Origin: a virus
DNA: 22,543 bases
Strand: one strand, 5' to 3'
Virus record (IMG/VR): IMGVR_UViG_3300011116_000263
Location: 1-22,543 of that record
The position numbers were made by a program, and so were the translations under genes. Below the pieces are notes generated by a model. It made no database searches and was not told where the DNA came from. It worked only from the letters and a program-made list of their open reading frames with translations. Below are positions 1,393 through 22,543 of the stretch, piece by piece (position 1 is the stretch's first letter; every line of letters starts with the position of its first letter).

Positions 1393-4300
1393 ATGAGTCT
1401 TACTAAAGCGGTTCAATGGCTTGGCGACCAAATTGGTGACGGACTAAGAGCCGTTGGAGATGTCGCGGGCGATGCTCTACGCGCTGTTGGCAAAGGAATC
1501 CAAAAACTAGGTGACTTTGCTGGAGACACAATTAAAGCAATCATCAAGGATCCGCTGCCGACTTTGTTGTCTTATGCCGGTACGTTTATTGGCATTCCGC
1601 CTTACGTTACTTCTTCCGTTATTACTGCGGCAAAAGGCGGAAATCTTGAAGACATAGCAAAGTCTGCTGCTATATCGTATGCCACAACCAGTTTCATGTC
1701 TGACACGCAAATAGGCGCGGACATCAAGAACTACACAACCAATCAGTGGGCAGGGGACTTTACCGACTCCATGATGGAGAAGTTTAATTTGCCAGCGGAT
1801 ACGGCTGTGCAGATTTCAAAGGTAGCCAGCGCTAGTTTGAACTCGTCTTTGATTGGCGGTATTAACGCAGCACTTAGCGGCAAGTCAATTGCAACGGGCA
1901 TCTCTTCTGGATTCACCTCTGGATTGATCTACTCGTCAACCGATAGCTACTTTGACTCAATCAAGAAAAATCCAAACTGGGGTTTAAGCGCTACCACCAT
2001 AGATTTGATGAAGGGCGCTACAAGCACCGCATTGAACACCATAGTGTCTGGCAAAGGTGATCCAGCACAAGCTGTTGGCAACTACATTGCTTACGCCAGC
2101 CTAAACATGGCTGGATCATCTTTGTTTAACAAGGCAAAAGAAACATACCAGTCATTAACAAAGAGCACCACCGAAGCAGAAAAAGCCCAAGAAAAATATG
2201 CTGCCGAAAAGTCCGAATACGACAAGCAATTAAAAGCTGCTGAAAATTTACGCAATTCGGTCAATGCCGATACCGCTGCGTACCAAAAAACAATTGATGA
2301 GCAATACAACCCATTTAAGAAACAATACGATGATCTAATTGCGGCAAACGATGTTCAGGCATCTACTTTTAATACAAACAAAAAAGCATTTGAAGACAAC
2401 AAGTGGGCGGTTGACAACTATGGCGCTAAGTTGGCCCAACTTGGTTACGAACCTGTTGATCTTGGAGAAGGTTATTCTTCATACGGCAGAGTCATTGGAT
2501 CTTCTAAATTCGTAAATCGAGGAGGGACTGAGTACACCAATTACACATACGCATATGATGCCCCTTCACAGCAATCGTTTATTGATGCGGCAAATGCAGC
2601 AGCAGATAAAGCAAATGCTGCCGCAGCCAAGTCAAAAGAAATTCAAGATGCTGCCACCAAGCTATACAACGACAACAAGCCAATGCTTGACTCGTTGCCA
2701 ATCAAAGCCGCTGATATAGACAAAAAAGTAGCAGACTTTAACGCCATCAAGTCTGATATTGAGACGCCAAAAGATGGCAACCTTGCTCAAAGACTTCAAG
2801 ACGCTTCTAAAGAGTACCAAAACAATTATGACATTTGGGCGGCTTCAAAATCCGAAGCAGACAAATCAGCAGAGGAATACACCAAGGCATTGGCCGAAGT
2901 AGCAACACGCGATGCAACTATTGATGCAATAAATTCTGGAGCTATCACTGCTACTAAGCAGGACAAAGATGGCAACTGGGTGTTGTCCAACAACATGACC
3001 TTGACCAAGGACGGCAAGTTTGTGCAAGAAGGTGTGCAGCAATTTACCAATGCTGCTGGCATCAACCAAAAGCCTCTGGATCTCACCAGCGCTGATGGAT
3101 CAAAAATTGACTTTAGCGAAGACGCTGGCCGCTTGTTGTCCACATCGGATGTGAAGAACTTAGCCCAGCGCGACTACGGTCTTTCCATTACGGACGAAGA
3201 AGCCAAAAAGTTTGCTGGCAAGGATTACACAGAAGCGGCTATTCCTGAGCTTGAATCTTTTGCGGCAACCAAAGCGAAGGAAGCAGGCTTTCCCGATTAC
3301 AAAGCGTACCAAGAATTTGGTGGCAATTTAGATCAGTACCAAAAATCAAAAGAATTGATGGACTCCATCAATTTGTTTAAAGCTGATTCGTCGGCAACTT
3401 TGCGAGATGAGATTAAAAATTCCAATTTAAGCGCGGATGAAAAAAGGTCACTGTATGAAGCTATGGGTGATGTGCAATCCGCGCAAGCATTGCCAAAAGT
3501 AACCACAGACGCAGGTAGTGTTGGGCAAGTTCGCATTGGAGCGCCATTTTCCGCCAACGATCCAAAAATTGCCCCAATACTTGCAAAAAATCCCGCTTTA
3601 CGTCAAAGCTATAACGAGTACGCAAATACGTTCGGGATTAGCTCTTCAGCTACGATAGATCAATATATTCAAAACTTAAAAGATGCGGCTGATGAATTTG
3701 GCCTAAGTCCCGATAGCAGCACCACATATGAACAAGAGCTTGCAGATATAGTAAATAAAGATCCGTCAAAACGAGCATTAGTGCCGGACAAATATTTGCC
3801 ATACGGCATGAGGGAGTTGCTTCCATTGGAAGAAGTGGAGCAAGCTCCCGGCGAAGTTGTCTCGGTTGATGCTGGTAGCAGTGAAGGCGTTGTGAAGGAC
3901 GAAGAGGCCACCGACAGCGGATATAAGCCAATTAGCTTTGACAACACTGCAACCATACTTGCAATCAATGCGAATGGAACTGCATTAGTCCAAAACGACA
4001 CTACTGGCGCACAGTCCACAGTGCCAACAATTGGTAATCCAGAAGTTGGGTCAAAGGTAGACATTAAAGTCAGCGCATCAACTGGAGAGGCTACTGCTGT
4101 TGCAAAGACTGAGCAGCTGCCTGTAACGCCTCCCGTTAACCCGCCTGTTACAACTCCACCTGTTGTAGAGCCTACCGAGGTTGAGCCTCCAGTGGTGACT
4201 CCACCTGTTGTAACTCCTCCAGAAGTTGTTCCGCCTGAAGTTATACCTCCTGTCGTGCAGCCTCCAATTGCGCCGCCTGAAGTGGTTCCTCCTGTTACGC

Positions 4301-6450
4301 CTTTAATTGAAAATCCGCCAGTTATTCCACCTGTGGTTACACCTCCGATTGAGCCGCCTGTTGTAACGCCCCCAGTTGTGACTCCGCCAGTTGTTGAGCC
4401 TACTGTCACACCTCCTCCTGTTGTGTCCCCTGTAGTCACGCATCCAGTTGTAGAGCCGCCTGTTGTTACCCCACCAGTTACACCTCCGGTAGTAGCACCT
4501 CCGGTAACTCCACCCGTAGTCACTCCGCCAGTAACCCCTCCAGTGGTTTCGCCTCCTGTCGCTCCAGCAACAAGTGGGGTAACTATTGATGCCGTCACAA
4601 AAGCAATCAATGATTCAATTGCTGGAATCAAGTTTCCCGCTGGAATTACTTCTGATGAAGTTGCTGAACAAGTCAGGGCCGCAATGGCGGCTAATCCAAG
4701 CCTGAGCGCTACAGACGTTACAAACGCCATAGCTGCATACATGACGGCCAACCCCGGATTGACCGCTTTGGATGTAAACACTGCCATTACTGGTGCCACA
4801 AAAGACTTAGCAACCAAAAAAGATGTTGAGGCAGCAATTGCTGGAATTCAGTTCCCAGCAGGCATTACTTCCGCCGATGTAGCAGAGCAAATTAAAGCGG
4901 CAATGGAAGCTAATCCTAATTTGAAGATAGCTGACGTTACCAAAGCAATAACCGACTATATGTCGGCCAATCCTGCGCTTACTGCTGCTGATGTGAATAC
5001 GGCAATTACTGGCGCTACTCAAAACTTGGCGACCCAAGGTCAACTTGATGCGGCAATAAAAAATCTTTCTGCTGACCAGAAAACTCAATTTGACAATTTG
5101 ACAAAGGCGCAGCAAGACGAGGTGGCCGCTCGTGTAAAACAAGGCGATGCAATACAAGATGCAATTATTGGCGCTACCAAAAACTTGGCAACTCAATCAC
5201 AGCTTGATGATGCAGTAAAAAATCTGTCTGCCGACCAAAAAACACAGTTCAATAACTTAACTCAATCTCAAAAAGATGAAGTAGATGCTCGTGTAAAACA
5301 AGGCCAAGACATTCAAAATGCTATTGCTTCAGCACAACAAACAACAAGCAATCAAGTTCAAAATATTCAAGGCGAATTAAATGGAAGAATTGACGCCCTT
5401 GTTAAGCAAGGCGTAGAAACAAATGCCGCAATACAGCAAGCAATTGCAGAGTCACAAACGCAAATAAATAGAAATGATGCAAACATCAACTCTAGAATTG
5501 ACGTACTTGTCGGTCAGGGTGTTGACTACCAAAAAGCAACGCAAATAGCTTTTGAGGAAACACGAGGAACAATAAACAATGTTGGAAAACAGCTTGCTGA
5601 CAAAATAAAAGCAGATGAAGCCGACAAGCAAGCTGCGGCAGAAGCCAAAAGGGTGGCAGATGCTGCTGCGGAAGAAGAGAAGAGAGTAGCTGCTGCTGCC
5701 GCATTGGCAAAAGACATTGCTGCCAAACAAGCGGCTGCAAAGGCATCAACTGCGGCCCAACAAAAAGCCGCAGGCCAAGGTGCCCTGTCTTTGCTTCAGC
5801 CAGCCGCAACGTCAGCATCTGAATTGGCAGCCGTAGCAGGCCCACTTACTGCCAGCTACTTGACGGCAAAAGAAGACCCCAACAAGTTTGAAAGCCCGTT
5901 GGAAAAATTCCTAAAAACGCAAAACCAAGCTCTTGGCAAAGAAAATCAGTACGGCATACAACCACAAGGAAATGCGATGAACGACCCCTCATACTCTTAC
6001 GGGACACAGCGCCCCATTGAGGACATCCTCGGCATGGGATCGGCCCAATCAACCCAAGCGGGCCAAGCGCCAGATTCCTCCATCCCAAGCTACCCTACGG
6101 CGGTCAATTACGCTCAGGGCGGCGGTACTCGGCACGGAAAGTACGCCCAAGGCGGTCTAAGCACCCCTCTGATGGCCTCTGGCGGCAAGATGCGGGTGGA
6201 TTTCCGCCACGGAGACGCCGTAACGGGGGCTGGAGACGGCCAATCGGACGATATTCCCGCCATGCTGGCTGATGGGGAGTTTGTTTTCCCCGCCGATGTG
6301 GTTGCCGCAATAGGAAATGGCTCACCCAAGGCAGGAAGCGATAAACTATACGACATGATGCACGGCATCCGCGCCCATGCCCGTTCTGCCAAACCCAAGG
6401 ATTTGCCGCCGCAGATCAAATCACCGCTTGATTTTCTCAAGCGAAGCTAG
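1393..6450 (+). CDS. Giant repeat-rich internal/ejection virion protein (1685 aa)
   Basis: AAGGGG at 1379-1384 precedes ATG 1393, two bases after the upstream stop. Domains in order: residues 1-110 are amphipathic repeats (GDGLRAVGDVAGDALRAVGK) followed by hydrophobic, Ala/Ser/Gly-rich helices; about 245-310 and 395-500 are coiled coil; 910-1058 is a Pro-Val-Thr linker made of PPVV/TPP units; 1076-1221 are two tandem 73-residue repeats (FPAGIT...ANP...VNTAITGAT); 1222-1315 are two shorter NLSADQKTQF repeats; 1320-1490 is a long Ala/Gln/Lys coiled coil; the last ~110 residues hold a Gly-rich stretch and the motif GQSDDIPAMLADGEFVFPADVV. That C-terminal motif is a recurring end module of very large proteins in uncultured short-tailed phages. 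The size and context fit a DNA-ejection or internal core protein comparable in role to T7 gp15/gp16. The role is inferred; a huge tail-associated protein is the alternative. Confidence 0.6.
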   Translation: MSLTKAVQWLGDQIGDGLRAVGDVAGDALRAVGKGIQKLGDFAGDTIKAIIKDPLPTLLSYAGTFIGIPPYVTSSVITAAKGGNLEDIAKSAAISYATTSFMSDTQIGADIKNYTTNQWAGDFTDSMMEKFNLPADTAVQISKVASASLNSSLIGGINAALSGKSIATGISSGFTSGLIYSSTDSYFDSIKKNPNWGLSATTIDLMKGATSTALNTIVSGKGDPAQAVGNYIAYASLNMAGSSLFNKAKETYQSLTKSTTEAEKAQEKYAAEKSEYDKQLKAAENLRNSVNADTAAYQKTIDEQYNPFKKQYDDLIAANDVQASTFNTNKKAFEDNKWAVDNYGAKLAQLGYEPVDLGEGYSSYGRVIGSSKFVNRGGTEYTNYTYAYDAPSQQSFIDAANAAADKANAAAAKSKEIQDAATKLYNDNKPMLDSLPIKAADIDKKVADFNAIKSDIETPKDGNLAQRLQDASKEYQNNYDIWAASKSEADKSAEEYTKALAEVATRDATIDAINSGAITATKQDKDGNWVLSNNMTLTKDGKFVQEGVQQFTNAAGINQKPLDLTSADGSKIDFSEDAGRLLSTSDVKNLAQRDYGLSITDEEAKKFAGKDYTEAAIPELESFAATKAKEAGFPDYKAYQEFGGNLDQYQKSKELMDSINLFKADSSATLRDEIKNSNLSADEKRSLYEAMGDVQSAQALPKVTTDAGSVGQVRIGAPFSANDPKIAPILAKNPALRQSYNEYANTFGISSSATIDQYIQNLKDAADEFGLSPDSSTTYEQELADIVNKDPSKRALVPDKYLPYGMRELLPLEEVEQAPGEVVSVDAGSSEGVVKDEEATDSGYKPISFDNTATILAINANGTALVQNDTTGAQSTVPTIGNPEVGSKVDIKVSASTGEATAVAKTEQLPVTPPVNPPVTTPPVVEPTEVEPPVVTPPVVTPPEVVPPEVIPPVVQPPIAPPEVVPPVTPLIENPPVIPPVVTPPIEPPVVTPPVVTPPVVEPTVTPPPVVSPVVTHPVVEPPVVTPPVTPPVVAPPVTPPVVTPPVTPPVVSPPVAPATSGVTIDAVTKAINDSIAGIKFPAGITSDEVAEQVRAAMAANPSLSATDVTNAIAAYMTANPGLTALDVNTAITGATKDLATKKDVEAAIAGIQFPAGITSADVAEQIKAAMEANPNLKIADVTKAITDYMSANPALTAADVNTAITGATQNLATQGQLDAAIKNLSADQKTQFDNLTKAQQDEVAARVKQGDAIQDAIIGATKNLATQSQLDDAVKNLSADQKTQFNNLTQSQKDEVDARVKQGQDIQNAIASAQQTTSNQVQNIQGELNGRIDALVKQGVETNAAIQQAIAESQTQINRNDANINSRIDVLVGQGVDYQKATQIAFEETRGTINNVGKQLADKIKADEADKQAAAEAKRVADAAAEEEKRVAAAAALAKDIAAKQAAAKASTAAQQKAAGQGALSLLQPAATSASELAAVAGPLTASYLTAKEDPNKFESPLEKFLKTQNQALGKENQYGIQPQGNAMNDPSYSYGTQRPIEDILGMGSAQSTQAGQAPDSSIPSYPTAVNYAQGGGTRHGKYAQGGLSTPLMASGGKMRVDFRHGDAVTGAGDGQSDDIPAMLADGEFVFPADVVAAIGNGSPKAGSDKLYDMMHGIRAHARSAKPKDLPPQIKSPLDFLKRS
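4126..4572 (+). repeat. Pro-Val-Thr repeat linker coding region
   Basis: About 150 residues of short irregular PPVV, PPVT and TPPV units, encoded by degenerate cct/ccg/cca-gtt-gta triplets. The units vary in synonymous codons, so the tract has been maintained at protein level rather than freshly expanded. On the opposite strand it gives a long Gly-Thr-rich open frame (3669-4817) that is an artefact. Such linkers form an extended rigid spacer. Confidence 0.85.
4618..5055 (+). repeat. Two tandem 73-codon repeats inside the giant virion gene
   Basis: Copies at 4618-4836 and 4837-5055 encode IAGI(K/Q)FPAGITS-(D/A)-(E/D)-VAEQ openings, an ANP(S/N)L segment, a second (T/S)ANP-LT segment and a VNTAITGAT close. 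DNA identity is clearly lower than protein identity, so the duplication is old. Each unit contains two ANPxL helix caps, suggesting a small helical repeat fold. Confidence 0.85.
5056..5337 (+). repeat. Two further tandem repeats (53 and about 41 codons)
   Basis: Copies begin at 5056 and 5215 with (I/V)KNLSADQKTQF, continue through a DEV-ARVKQG segment and end in an NAI-A or DAIIGATKNLAT stretch. The first copy ends with the same GATxNLAT(Q) element that closes the 73-codon repeats, so the two repeat types share a module. Predicted to be helical and coiled coil. Confidence 0.8.
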
Positions 6451-10693: not shown

Positions 10694-10916
10694 ATGGCCG
10701 CTGATTCTCTAAAGCCTTGGCGACTTCAGGGTTCAGTTCGGCCACGATAGCAACGCAGCGCTCATGCTCCGCTTTGGCTAGGTGGGGATGGGCATAGGCC
10801 AGCAGCTTGTTGGCAAACTGAACGATGTCTACCTCGTCCGCAATCATGGCGTTGGGTTCATGGATGTCGCAGTAGAAAAAGATCTGCTTGATGGTTTCTT
10901 CGGTTAGGTATTTCAT
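10692..10916 (-). CDS. Small conserved phage protein (74 aa)
   Basis: Last gene of the leftward operon. The start at 10916 is chosen because its ATG forms an ATGA overlap with the stop of the HNH gene; an in-frame start at 10940 would lie deeper inside that gene. The product begins MKYLTEETIKQIF and ends AEHERCVAIVAELNPEVAKAL. Its second half shares the E-x-E/R-x-C-x-x-(I/A)-x small-helix theme found in two rightward small genes of this window (15285 and 18809). It is soluble and acidic with no recognised domain, and its function is unknown. Confidence 0.6.
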   Translation of the reverse strand: MKYLTEETIKQIFFYCDIHEPNAMIADEVDIVQFANKLLAYAHPHLAKAEHERCVAIVAELNPEVAKALENQRP

Positions 10917-11536
10917 GTGTGTTTGTTCTTTAGTTGCCAATAGGTTTTTTTTGCCGCACTGATTTTTGCTTTGTTTTCAGGCCTTTGCATTGGATTGTTT
11001 TCTCCACGCATTCTTTCTTTATGTTCTTCTAAAAGCATATGACTTAATTTTCCTTTTCTTGTTTCGCTCATTTTATTTTTTGACTTTTCAGAATGTTTCC
11101 ATTTTGACGGGTCGCCTGAACGGGGGCGACCTTTTCTGACTGCGCTCATTTTGGCTTTTGTTTCATCGGATGCCTTAGACCCGGTTCTTGCTTTTGTTAT
11201 TGCCTCTACAACATGTAATGGTCTTTTTTTAGCGCTTAAGTGTTCAGCCCATTCTCTTTTTGCCATTTCGTAAAGCCGACTATTTGTTACTCTGCCATGT
11301 TGAACAAGGCTTTTATTCATCATCATTCGAGCAGCTTGCCACATTCCTTTTCCATGAATTTTAGCCAAAAGCATATGAGCTAAAAAATGCTCTCTACCAG
11401 ATAACGCCACTATGTTGCTTTTTGCATTTGACCCACCCAAAGACTTTGGAGTAATGTGATGTTTTTCAACATACCCCAAAATAATTTTGGATTTTGCTTT
11501 TTTAATAAGCAAGTCATAGTGGCGCTGATAGTTCAT
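10913..11536 (-). CDS. HNH homing endonuclease with NUMOD3 repeats
   Basis: 207 residues. The N-terminal 60 residues form an HNH nuclease core: KHHITPKSLGGSN (His-His of the first motif), NIVALSGREHFLAHMLL (Asn and second His). Three Lys/Ser/Thr-rich NUMOD3-type DNA-binding repeats follow (about 115-140, 150-170 and 185-200; e.g. SDETKAKMSAVRKGRP, KSKNKMSETRKGK). This is the standard layout of free-standing phage homing nucleases, which cut an allele lacking the gene and spread by repair. It sits between the exonuclease gene (two-base gap) and a small gene (4-base overlap) and is far more AT-rich than its surroundings; one 60-base line at 11041 counts 17 G+C. Its C-terminus (WQLKNKHT) resembles the exonuclease C-terminus (WYLKNKFNN), possibly a trace of insertion. 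Confidence 0.88.
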   Translation of the reverse strand: MNYQRHYDLLIKKAKSKIILGYVEKHHITPKSLGGSNAKSNIVALSGREHFLAHMLLAKIHGKGMWQAARMMMNKSLVQHGRVTNSRLYEMAKREWAEHLSAKKRPLHVVEAITKARTGSKASDETKAKMSAVRKGRPRSGDPSKWKHSEKSKNKMSETRKGKLSHMLLEEHKERMRGENNPMQRPENKAKISAAKKTYWQLKNKHT

Positions 11537-15518: not shown

Positions 15519-15868
15519 ACCCGCTCGAAATAACGCTGCCGTGGCCTCCATCGGTCAACACCTACTGGCGCATGGTCAACGGGCGGATGATCATCAGCAA
15601 GGACGGGAGAGACTACCGACAAGAGGTGGCCGACCAGATGCTGATACAGCGTGCCCAGAAACACTTTGACGGGCCGTTGTGCCTTACGGTGGAGGCTCAC
15701 CGCCCAGACAACCGCAGGCGCGACCTAGACAATCTTTTGAAAGCCGCACTCGACTCATTGGCTCACGCTGGCGTGTACGAGGACGACTCGCAGATAAAAG
15801 ACTTACGCATTTATTGGGCACCAACCATTGGCGGGATGCTTAAGATCAAAATTGAGGAGATGGAATGA
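15515..15868 (+). CDS. rusA: RusA-family Holliday junction resolvase
   Basis: 117 residues, close to the 120 of E. coli RusA. The opening LPWPPSVNTYWR is the family signature. The catalytic positions Asp70, Asp72 and Asp91 and the essential Lys76 all occur at the same numbers as in the E. coli enzyme, within RRRDLDNLLKAALDSL and YEDDSQI. The dimeric enzyme cuts four-way DNA junctions symmetrically, here resolving recombination or replication intermediates before packaging. The start forms an ATGA overlap with the previous gene. The last codons contain the 15-base repeat that bounds the following two-gene cassette, and the protein ends KIKIEEME. Confidence 0.93.
   Translation: MNPLEITLPWPPSVNTYWRMVNGRMIISKDGRDYRQEVADQMLIQRAQKHFDGPLCLTVEAHRPDNRRRDLDNLLKAALDSLAHAGVYEDDSQIKDLRIYWAPTIGGMLKIKIEEME
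15848..15862 (+). repeat. Left direct repeat bounding the dpdA-like/transporter cassette
   Basis: AAAATTGAGGAGATG, identical to 17001-17015. It lies in the last codons of rusA, in the same frame (K-I-E-E-M) as the right copy in the transporter gene. It includes the GAGGAG ribosome binding site of the next gene, and both copies are followed by two bases and an ATGA start/stop overlap. Confidence 0.9.
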
Positions 15869-16545
15869 TTCATTATCACGGAACACCAATCAGTCCCATT
15901 AAAGCCATTGAAACAATGGGCGGTAAGCATTTTTGTATTTCTTATGCCCGTCCTGATGATTTAAAGCGTTGCTTACGCATTGGTCAATCTTTGATGCTAG
16001 ACAACGGCGCATTTAGTGCAAAGACAAGAGGCTTGCCATTTGACCGGGATGGGTTTTATGCTTGGGTAGAACCCTTGCTGGCTCACCCACATTGGGCGGT
16101 TGTTCCTGATGTAATTGACGGCTCTGTGCAAGAACAGCGTGACATGGTTAAGTCTTGGCCTTTCCGCAAAGACATGGGCATTCCTGTGTGGCATCTTGGC
16201 CTTCCCATTTCCTACCTCATTGAACTTTGTGATGCTTGGGGACGGGTTTGCTTTGGCTCGGCTGGAGAGTTTTGGAAGATTGGCACAGCTAAGTGGTGTC
16301 ACCGCATGGATGAGGCATTCAACGCTTTGGTGAACGCTTATGGCAGGCAAATACCTTGGGTTCATGGGATGCGTATGCTTGGGCAATCAAGCGGCCCGTG
16401 GCCTTTAGCAAGTGCCGATTCAACCAATGTTGCACTGCATCATGCAGAGCATTTGGAATGTGCTGGATGTATGGCAAAACGCATTGACTCAACCAACCCA
16501 CCCACAAATTGGAAAATTCAACCATTACAGGAGTTTTTATGCTGA
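15865..16545 (+). CDS. TGT/DpdA-like 7-deazaguanine transglycosylase (226 aa)
   Basis: ATG 15865 forms an ATGA overlap with rusA, with GAGGAG at 15854-15859. Motifs: LMLDNGAFSA with Asp46, VVPDVIDG at 79-86, PVWHLG at 107-112, CFGSAGEFW at 129-137, WVHGMRML at 165-172 and SADSTNVA at 183-190 with Asp185. The order parallels tRNA-guanine transglycosylases (DSGGF with the acid/base Asp, a glycine-rich base pocket, then a nucleophilic Asp). This is how I recognise the phage 'deoxypurine in DNA A' group, which swaps guanine in DNA for a 7-deazaguanine. His192/His193/His196 and Cys199/Cys202 after the nucleophile motif could be a reduced metal site. It is shorter than bacterial Tgt (about 375 residues). 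The adjoining transporter gene supports the call. Residue assignments are by motif order, not alignment. Confidence 0.72.
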   Translation: MIHYHGTPISPIKAIETMGGKHFCISYARPDDLKRCLRIGQSLMLDNGAFSAKTRGLPFDRDGFYAWVEPLLAHPHWAVVPDVIDGSVQEQRDMVKSWPFRKDMGIPVWHLGLPISYLIELCDAWGRVCFGSAGEFWKIGTAKWCHRMDEAFNALVNAYGRQIPWVHGMRMLGQSSGPWPLASADSTNVALHHAEHLECAGCMAKRIDSTNPPTNWKIQPLQEFLC

Positions 16546-17021
16546 TTGCCGCCATCATTGTTTACGCCATTGCCATGACATTGGCAAATTTGTCAATTGC
16601 CATTTTTGGCGTGTGGGTCAGTCCTATAAACGCATTTCTGTTTATCGGCCTTGATTTGGCATTGCGGGATTGGTTGCAAATGCAAATTAAAGCATGGCAG
16701 ATGGCGGCTTTGATTGTAATCAGTGGGGCATTGACTTATGCATTTAACCAAAACGCTGGAATGATTGCCGTGGCATCTGCGGCATCTTTTACTTTGGCAG
16801 CATTGGCCGATTGGGCGGTTTTTTCAAAGGTTACCGGCTCATGGTTTAAGCGGGCTAATGTGTCCAATTTTGCTGGCGCAGCAGTGGACTCTGTGGTATT
16901 CCCCACCATTGCTTTTGGTGTGTTGATGCCAGAAATTATTGTTTTGCAATTTGCCGCAAAAATTGTCGGTGGATATTTTTGGTCTGTTTTACTAAAGAAA
17001 AAAATTGAGGAGATGCCATGA
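16539..17021 (+). CDS. VUT/YhhQ-like queuosine-precursor transporter (160 aa)
   Basis: ATG 16539 with AGGAG at 16529-16533; it overlaps the dpdA-like gene by seven bases, so the two are translationally coupled. About six hydrophobic helices are seen: 2-23, 28-43, 54-69, 75-95, 108-130 and 135-152. Family-type sequence includes SPINAFLFIGLDLALRDWL (28-46), ASFTLAALADWAVF (82-95) and NVSNFAGAAVDSVVFPTIAFG (107-127), with Asp39, Asp91 and Asp117 within or beside membrane segments. E. coli YhhQ of this VUT family imports preQ0/preQ1. The phage protein is shorter than YhhQ (221 residues), lacking mainly the termini. It would act in the host inner membrane, feeding precursor to the DpdA-like enzyme. 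Substrate is inferred from family and partner. Confidence 0.78.
   Translation: MLIAAIIVYAIAMTLANLSIAIFGVWVSPINAFLFIGLDLALRDWLQMQIKAWQMAALIVISGALTYAFNQNAGMIAVASAASFTLAALADWAVFSKVTGSWFKRANVSNFAGAAVDSVVFPTIAFGVLMPEIIVLQFAAKIVGGYFWSVLLKKKIEEMP
17001..17015 (+). repeat. Right direct repeat bounding the dpdA-like/transporter cassette
   Basis: AAAATTGAGGAGATG, identical to 15848-15862 and in the same reading frame of the transporter gene (K-I-E-E-M, then P and stop). Recombination between the copies would delete 1153 bases, remove both cassette genes, leave rusA intact apart from its last residue (E to P) and keep the ATGA overlap with the gene at 17018. Confidence 0.9.
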
Positions 17022-21246: not shown

Positions 21247-21395
21247 ACGACTATGTGCGCGGCTTTGACGATGGGCGCGACTTTACCCTTGCTGAGATTG
21301 AGGATTGGATCAAGAAGAGCCAAGAGCCAAACTACGCGATGGAGGCGCTCCAGAGGCTTCTAAATCACCTGAAAACGATTGGTAAAGTGAAATGA
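21243..21395 (+). CDS. Small hypothetical protein (50 aa)
   Basis: ATG 21243 gives an ATGA overlap with the previous gene, and TTGGAGGAT lies just upstream. A frame opening at 21186 inside the membrane-protein gene is not the start. The product MNDYVRGFDDGRDFTLAEIE continues DWIKKSQEPNYAMEALQRLLNHL. The 'GFxxGRDxTLxEIxxWI' segment is common in small phage proteins that precede methyltransferase genes. It is helical and acidic, of unknown role. Confidence 0.65.
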   Translation: MNDYVRGFDDGRDFTLAEIEDWIKKSQEPNYAMEALQRLLNHLKTIGKVK

Positions 21396-22543
21396 AATAC
21401 TTATCTGTATGCTCAGGCATTGAAGCTGCAACAGTTGCTTGGCACCCATTGGATTGGGAGCCGGTAGCGTTTGGTGAGATTGAAAAGTTTCCCTGTCAGG
21501 TGTTAGCGCACCATTACCCGGATACCCCAAACTGGGGTGATATGACCAAATTTAAGGAGTGGTCAGATGCAAATGTCAATGTTCTCGTTGGAGGAACTCC
21601 CTGCCAGTCCTTCAGTGTCGCTGGACTCAGAAAAGGACTGGATGACCCTCGTGGCAACCTCATGCTTACCTGGCTTGCCATTGCTGCAAGATATCGGCCC
21701 AGGTGGCTGGTTTGGGAGAACGTCCCCGGCGTCTTATCCTCTAACGGAGGACTCGACTTTGCCTCCCTCCTTCGAGGGATGGGGGAACTCGGGTATGGGT
21801 TCGCGTACCGAGTTCTTGACGCTCAGTATTTCGGAGTGGCCCAGCGACGCCGTCGTGTGTTCGTTGTCGGATACCTTGGAAACTGGCGACCTGCCGCAGC
21901 GGTTCTTTTTGAGCGCCACAGCCTGTCAGGGCATCCTGCGCCGAGCAGAAAAGCGCGGGAAATTACTCCCACTTTCACTAAAGAATGCACTGGAGTTAGT
22001 CGCACAGGACACAATGAAGATGGATGGTATGTAGAAACACCATTAAAAACATTTTATGAAAGTAGTCTTGCACAGTACAAAGAATCTAATCTTGCAGGAA
22101 CAACTAAAGCAAGTGGTGGCGTTGCAGGTGGTGGAAGTGAAACATTTATCACCCAACCTATTGCCCTAGCCAAGAACACCATAGGACGCAAGCCTGAGAA
22201 CGGCAACAATGGCGATGGGTTTACTGAGGAAGGCCCGATGTACACGTTAAACGCAACAGGCGTGCATGGTGTAGCGCAGTCGGTTGGAGCATTCAAGCCA
22301 GGGCAGTCAGCATCAGCGCACAGCATTGGCTACGAGAGTGAGATGGCTCCGACGTTGGAAGCTGGAGAGGGTGGCAACAACAAGCCAGCGGTACACGTTG
22401 GCATGGCAGTACGCCGCCTAACTCCAAAAGAATGCGAACGCTTGCAAGGCTTTCCCGATAACTACACTGACATCAAGCCAAAGGGCAAGGCAACTCCCGA
22501 CGGGCCACGCTACAAGGCGCTGGGTAACTCTATGGCGGTGCCT
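21392..22543 (+). CDS. dcm: DNA cytosine-C5 methyltransferase, partial at window edge
   Basis: Open from ATG 21392 (ATGA overlap) to the window end: 384 residues seen, no stop reached. Motif I SVCSGIEAA (5-13), motif IV GGTPCQSFSVAG with catalytic Cys71, motif VI WENVPG (Glu109), motif VIII QRRRRVF (151-157), motif IX-like RRLTPKECERLQGFP (341-355) and the start of motif X ALGNSMAVP at the edge. The enzyme moves a methyl group from S-adenosylmethionine to C5 of cytosine. The region between motifs VIII and IX (about 160-340) is long, Gly/Asn/Thr-rich and is the target-recognition part; the sequence recognised cannot be read from it. No restriction endonuclease lies nearby, so it is an orphan, most likely guarding phage DNA. 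It is only a few residues short of complete. Confidence 0.95.
   Translation, partial: MKYLSVCSGIEAATVAWHPLDWEPVAFGEIEKFPCQVLAHHYPDTPNWGDMTKFKEWSDANVNVLVGGTPCQSFSVAGLRKGLDDPRGNLMLTWLAIAARYRPRWLVWENVPGVLSSNGGLDFASLLRGMGELGYGFAYRVLDAQYFGVAQRRRRVFVVGYLGNWRPAAAVLFERHSLSGHPAPSRKAREITPTFTKECTGVSRTGHNEDGWYVETPLKTFYESSLAQYKESNLAGTTKASGGVAGGGSETFITQPIALAKNTIGRKPENGNNGDGFTEEGPMYTLNATGVHGVAQSVGAFKPGQSASAHSIGYESEMAPTLEAGEGGNNKPAVHVGMAVRRLTPKECERLQGFPDNYTDIKPKGKATPDGPRYKALGNSMAVP

Follow-up and report, generated by a model that had tools for sequence, protein, structure and literature searches.

Organization of the gene pair

The window, by which we mean the whole stretch of DNA analysed, is an entire IMG/VR record of 22.5 kb and represents a linear fragment of a freshwater phage. 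Its plus strand carries a dpdA-like gene (15865..16545), encoding a 226-residue protein of the TGT superfamily, and a second gene (16539..17021) for a 160-residue membrane protein of the VUT/YhhQ family. Both frames were found where a preliminary description of this DNA had placed them; they are intact, with 226 and 160 codons, and overlap by seven bases. The transporter gene begins with an ATG at 16539, five bases behind a Shine-Dalgarno AGGAG (16529..16533, plus strand) that lies within the end of the dpdA-like gene. Overlaps of four bases also join the pair to its neighbours, between the rusA stop upstream and the enzyme start and between the transporter stop and the next start downstream, so that translation can run through on both sides.

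The overlap is retained in 23 sampled relatives, at 4-13 bases, as is a Shine-Dalgarno-like site within the last part of the enzyme gene, which upholds the tight coupling behind the earlier proposal that the two proteins are co-translated. Both genes are under strong purifying selection, with pairwise dN/dS of about 0.02-0.07 for the enzyme and 0.05-0.18 for the transporter, values obtained with synonymous sites nearly saturated in most pairs.

Elsewhere in the window, a C5-cytosine DNA methyltransferase gene (21392-22543, plus strand; PF00145, E=9.6e-50) is cut by the window end, so that the phage possesses a second DNA-modifying gene; the listed ORF at 21567-22034 is another frame of it, and homologues occur within a few kb of the pair in several relatives. 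A protein of the HNH/NUMOD3 homing-endonuclease type (10913-11536, minus strand) is encoded between the structural and the replication genes, and a structural-looking protein of 1685 residues (1393-6450, plus strand) with a long Pro/Val/Thr-rich repeat stretch is without PHROG match.

Family, fold and conserved residues of the enzyme

The enzyme matches phrog_887 ("queuine tRNA-ribosyltransferase") with E=3.5e-46, and the same profile is matched by 24 of 24 diverse relatives. No Pfam family was matched, PF23859 (DpdA) and PF01702 (TGT) included; PF01702 was unmatched by the enzyme at E<=1 and by 65 homologues at E<=0.1. The protein is consequently assigned to phrog_887, and not to the PF23859-type DpdAs among which it had been placed.

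An AlphaFold model based on the 65 homologues is of high confidence (pLDDT 94, pTM 0.90); an earlier model from close relatives alone had a poor C-terminal quarter, which was cured by adding homologues from bacterial genomes. The best 50 VIA-align matches listed all belong to the TGT superfamily, with Z 13.7-14.5 and some 200 of the 226 residues superposed at about 3 A. Rank 1 is Cap10 of type IV CBASS (9ntn, Z 14.5), tied with ordinary TGTs (14.2), and the ranking thus indicates "TGT superfamily" only. With Foldseek alone, nothing in the PDB was retrieved at E<=0.001, and the named matches among viral models were mostly phage queuine tRNA-ribosyltransferases. At the sequence level, family profiles found no match in the PDB, no significant profile-profile alignment was obtained between the enzyme family and 16 host TGTs, and a local profile alignment paired only DNGAF with DSGGF, which is non-significant on its own. 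As modelled, the enzyme has a TGT-type TIM barrel fold, in agreement with its original description as a TGT-type protein.

All motifs quoted in that description are present: LDNGAF (D46), PDVIDG (D82), GSAGE (131), VHGMR (167) and SADSTN (D185). Asp46, Asp82, His110, Gly131, His167, Arg170 and Asp185 are found in every one of the 65 homologues, and Asp46 is likewise invariant in the 24 diverse ones; the loss of both aspartates in relatives, which had been named as a finding that would speak against the assignment, does not occur in this set. The order of the motifs DNGAF, PDVIDG, GSAGE and SADST parallels that of TGTs. By analogy, Asp46 (codon 16000..16002), in the counterpart of DSGGF, is the candidate general acid/base, Asp82 (16108..16110) the candidate for base recognition and Asp185 (16417..16419) the candidate nucleophile, all three codons lying on the plus strand. 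The CxCxxC...H zinc motif of tRNA TGTs is absent from the sequence and the chain terminates 41 residues past Asp185, without a C-terminal extension, both of which argue against a tRNA substrate. A CxxC (C199, C202) is conserved within the close clade and not beyond.

The sole dpdA of Pantoea phage MED16 is a homologue of the enzyme (42% identity), and MED16 DNA holds dADG at about 0.13% of G (PMC8306585). The dpdA of OR850331.1, a 1.7 kb "Staphylococcus phage" record, is as identical to the query as that of many Salmonella phages, and the record is probably mislabelled or contaminated.

Family of the transporter

The transporter scores 34.1 bits against PF02592, above the curated cut-off of 27.2 (E=4.2e-8), which confirms the proposed VUT/YhhQ membership, and it matches phrog_4899 with E=1.6e-32. 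E. coli YhhQ aligns with the phage transporter profile in hhalign (94.7%, E=6e-8). Against the YhhQ equivalog model NF008406 the transporter reaches 18.4 bits at a cut-off of 252. YhhQ is required for preQ0/preQ1 salvage in E. coli, its transport having been shown indirectly and for that protein only, and COG1738 is heterogeneous in substrate (PMC5372724); the phage transporter may instead carry queuine or another purine. That COG1738 genes occur in bacteria whose DNA is modified with deazapurines was noted in 2017 (PMC5372724). The linkage described below refines the annotation of phrog_4899, which is currently of "unknown function".

Recurrence of the pair

A VUT gene lies directly downstream of the enzyme in 77 of the 80 viral relatives found at 65-96% identity, a set that includes near-identical viruses from different samples; one of the 77 (L050) has it split over two frames. 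It is absent in two of the remaining three (L030 and L046), and in the third (L075) the contig ends at the enzyme. The outer neighbours of the pair, by an automatic survey of the 80 loci, belong to 30 upstream and 22 downstream families. A fixed rusA operon including the pair was considered and dropped, the rusA of the window and the downstream ORF being without detectable homologue in the 80 viral loci.

The association extends to isolate phages, and a VUT gene is adjacent to or near the enzyme in RHph_N3_2, RHph_X2_30, Pam5, AB3P2, PEAT2, Tbat1_6, Opt-719, Lg3, RCIP0319 and Phc, preceding it in some and following it in others. On the enzyme tree, VUT presence requires about ten changes, at least six of them forced by starred branches, and involves both gene orders. 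In phiLM21 a VUT gene adjoins a PF23859 DpdA, and in Aoka it is separated by one small gene from an annotated DpdA-like protein (phrog_15826), so that VUT genes are found beside DpdAs of three families in total, two beyond phrog_887. The adjacency survey suggested in the preliminary description thus finds the pair in many unrelated phages, and it looks like a small cassette and not like a one-off. Since VUT is kept downstream in 77 of 80 relatives while the outer neighbours change, and since the association changed repeatedly on the enzyme tree and occurs in both orders, the pairing is not due to chance.

The transporter is optional, as 72 of 80 homologues of the enzyme in bacterial genomes are without VUT within 5 kb and two viral relatives keep the enzyme alone. 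An exception to the pairing is seen in the mEp021-type phages, whose VUT-family gene lies beside a DNA methyltransferase and has no DpdA nearby; in phage mEp021 itself (locus L110, 2956-3468) the two genes overlap, and no use for 7-deazaguanine is obvious.

Precursor supply in phages and hosts

The preliminary description had concluded from the window that the phage makes no precursor. The window is a linear fragment and insufficient by itself, and this conclusion therefore needs support from relatives, which is provided by a profile search of 49 records (32 viral records of the window's clade of up to 43 kb, the window included, and 17 isolate phages), none of which contains QueC, QueD or FolE above cut-off. 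What comes nearest is a weak partial QueD/PTPS-like gene of 98 codons that directly precedes dpdA in Caulobacter phage DMCA (locus L101, 2705-3001), and is perhaps an alternative route to raise precursor.

Of 79 bacterial genomes carrying the enzyme, all but five have a convincing QueC. Three of these five carry VUT, as against 5 of the 74 with QueC (Fisher p 0.006, and p 0.015 when restricted to alphaproteobacteria). The independent pairs are too few for a test that takes kinship into account, and several genomes are metagenome-assembled. A preference of VUT for enzyme-bearing genomes that lack QueC is accordingly suggestive only. One QueC-lacking genus is without QueC in five of five genomes. 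The enzyme is rare in hosts, with one occurrence in 297 genomes of one alphaproteobacterial order. Only one bacterial genome, a betaproteobacterial MAG (L114), carries a locus closely related to the pair of the window. It possesses QueC, and its sole PF02592 match is the phage-like VUT gene; its host may hence make preQ0 itself, and import there would add to synthesis and not take its place. A TGT of their own is present in all 16 bacterial genomes tested. QueC, a TGT/DpdA-like protein and VUT lie within about 6 kb in one genome (G051, that of locus L133; contig 24, 473050-479173), and QueC and VUT are neighbours in two others (G038 and G040).

Proposed function and alternative explanations

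We consider it fairly probable, judging from sequence, that the two genes form an "import and insert" cassette, which combines DpdA-type base exchange in phage DNA with YhhQ-like uptake of the precursor. The first gene would yield a short DpdA-type base-exchange enzyme, whose Asp185 would attack the sugar of the target guanosine in phage DNA and release guanine. The enzyme would then accept a 7-deazaguanine such as preQ0, possibly converted later to 7-amido-7-deazaguanine. Translation of the second gene, on the same message, would provide a YhhQ-like transporter raising the uptake of preQ0/preQ1 from outside, as the phage appears to make no precursor. The benefit would presumably be protection of phage DNA from host nucleases. 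That the substrate is DNA, that preQ0/preQ1 is what is imported and that the benefit lies in nuclease protection are all inferred.

A role in tRNA has to be weighed against this reading, as the TGT fold is common to tRNA enzymes: the enzyme would modify host or phage tRNA, and VUT would feed queuosine in tRNA and so aid translation during infection. Hutinet et al. propose effects on tRNA in phages with preQ0 genes and without DpdA (PMC6884629). The enzyme is, however, unmatched by PF01702, it lacks the zinc motif, its chain ends soon after Asp185, and a second TGT would be redundant in bacteria that already have their own. Moreover, 7-deazaguanine is present in the DNA of a phage with a homologous singleton enzyme (PMC8306585), and we judge the tRNA explanation distinctly unlikely. 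Still less credence is given to action on protein or some other interference with host defence, in the manner of Cap10, which is of the TGT family and has been remodelled so that it binds a protein N-terminus modified with deazaguanine (PMC11996544). Cap10 is the best structural match, but only in a tie with ordinary TGTs, and a QueC-like Cap9 partner was not found above cut-off in the records searched. Both TGT aspartates are invariant, and the homologue-bearing phage has modified DNA (PMC8306585), so that such a function seems very improbable.

A third explanation retains DNA as the substrate and lets the host make the precursor; VUT would carry another substrate (queuine, a purine or a vitamin) or serve another purpose, and the overlap would reflect operon packing. 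DpdA-only phages do have modified DNA (MED16 without VUT; 7-11, PMC6884629), COG1738 is heterogeneous (PMC5372724), and the mEp021 phages have VUT without DpdA nearby. Against it speak the recurrence of VUT beside DpdAs of three families and in either gene order, the persistence of the pair while its outer neighbours change, and the crude enrichment of VUT in QueC-lacking hosts, and we regard it as unlikely while leaving it some weight. The "import plus insert" reading of the preliminary description is thus supported in part, and in silico, by the TGT fold with its two invariant aspartates, Vut_1 membership, the tight coupling, the lack of QueC, QueD and FolE in the related records searched and the association repeated among unrelated phages, but not in its claims of unusualness and of PF23859 type.

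Novelty and implications

The transporter strategy had been called unusual, and is less so than claimed. A 2019 study (PMC6884629) already dealt with YhhQ homologues in phages, with DpdA-only phages and with uptake of precursor from outside, and in 2021 a phage preQ0 transporter clustered with dpdA and the full pathway was published (PMC8310023). New is the recurrent, coupled two-gene form, whereas singleton DpdAs, phage YhhQ homologues and the idea of uptake were already published; the linkage of enzyme and VUT in the phrog_887 family is unreported in the 2019 survey.

Among published dpdA phages, those with dpdA alone form the largest group, and the DNA measured contained traces of the modified base or none (PMC6884629, PMC8306585), with 0.02% of G in phage 7-11, which is DpdA-only, 0.13% in MED16 and none in Orion. 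The low levels in MED16 and 7-11 would fit a scarce precursor, and precursor supply is one explanation for the traces in dpdA-alone phages. It is quite conceivable, if not quite probable, that phages have repeatedly combined DpdAs of different families with one VUT family into a mobile two-gene cassette, by which their DNA is modified with scavenged 7-deazaguanines. If this is true, modification of phage DNA depends on release by neighbouring cells and is possible in hosts unable to make preQ0. Pair-bearing phages are predicted to modify their DNA according to the precursor in the medium, also in hosts without QueC, and the protection of phage DNA would be linked to public-goods metabolites by an enzyme-tied transporter.

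Comparison with known systems

The closest counterparts of the enzyme are singleton phage DpdAs (group 3 of Hutinet et al. 2019; MED16 and Salmonella phage SEN1), likewise phrog_887, short, TGT-like and without preQ0 synthesis genes. No VUT gene was seen in MED16, SEN1 and SfI, whereas the enzyme of the window has a translationally coupled one. Bacterial and archaeal TGTs (PDB 1pud, 1iq8, 2ash) resemble the model in fold (Z about 14; about 200 of 226 residues superposed at an rmsd of about 3 A) and share the order of aspartate motifs, but the window enzyme differs in the lack of a Pfam TGT match, of the CxCxxC...H zinc motif and of the C-terminal extension.

E. coli YhhQ (COG1738/QPTR, PF02592) belongs to the same family as the VUT protein of the window, and the conserved region of Asp117-Ser118 and Phe126 aligns between the two. 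It is longer, with 221 residues against 160, and the equivalog score of the window protein (18.4 versus 252 bits) sets the two further apart. In Seuratvirus / Enterobacter phage EC151, a phage-borne preQ0 transporter clustered with dpdA is proposed to raise cellular preQ0 (PMC8310023); EC151 also has folE, queD, queE and queC, while the pair of the window consists of enzyme and transporter only. The same arrangement is found in gp25-gp26 of Sinorhizobium phage phiLM21, where a DpdA gene is immediately followed by a VUT gene of the same kind, the DpdA being of another subfamily than the window enzyme (PF23859/phrog_1279; PF23859 E=2.4e-43).
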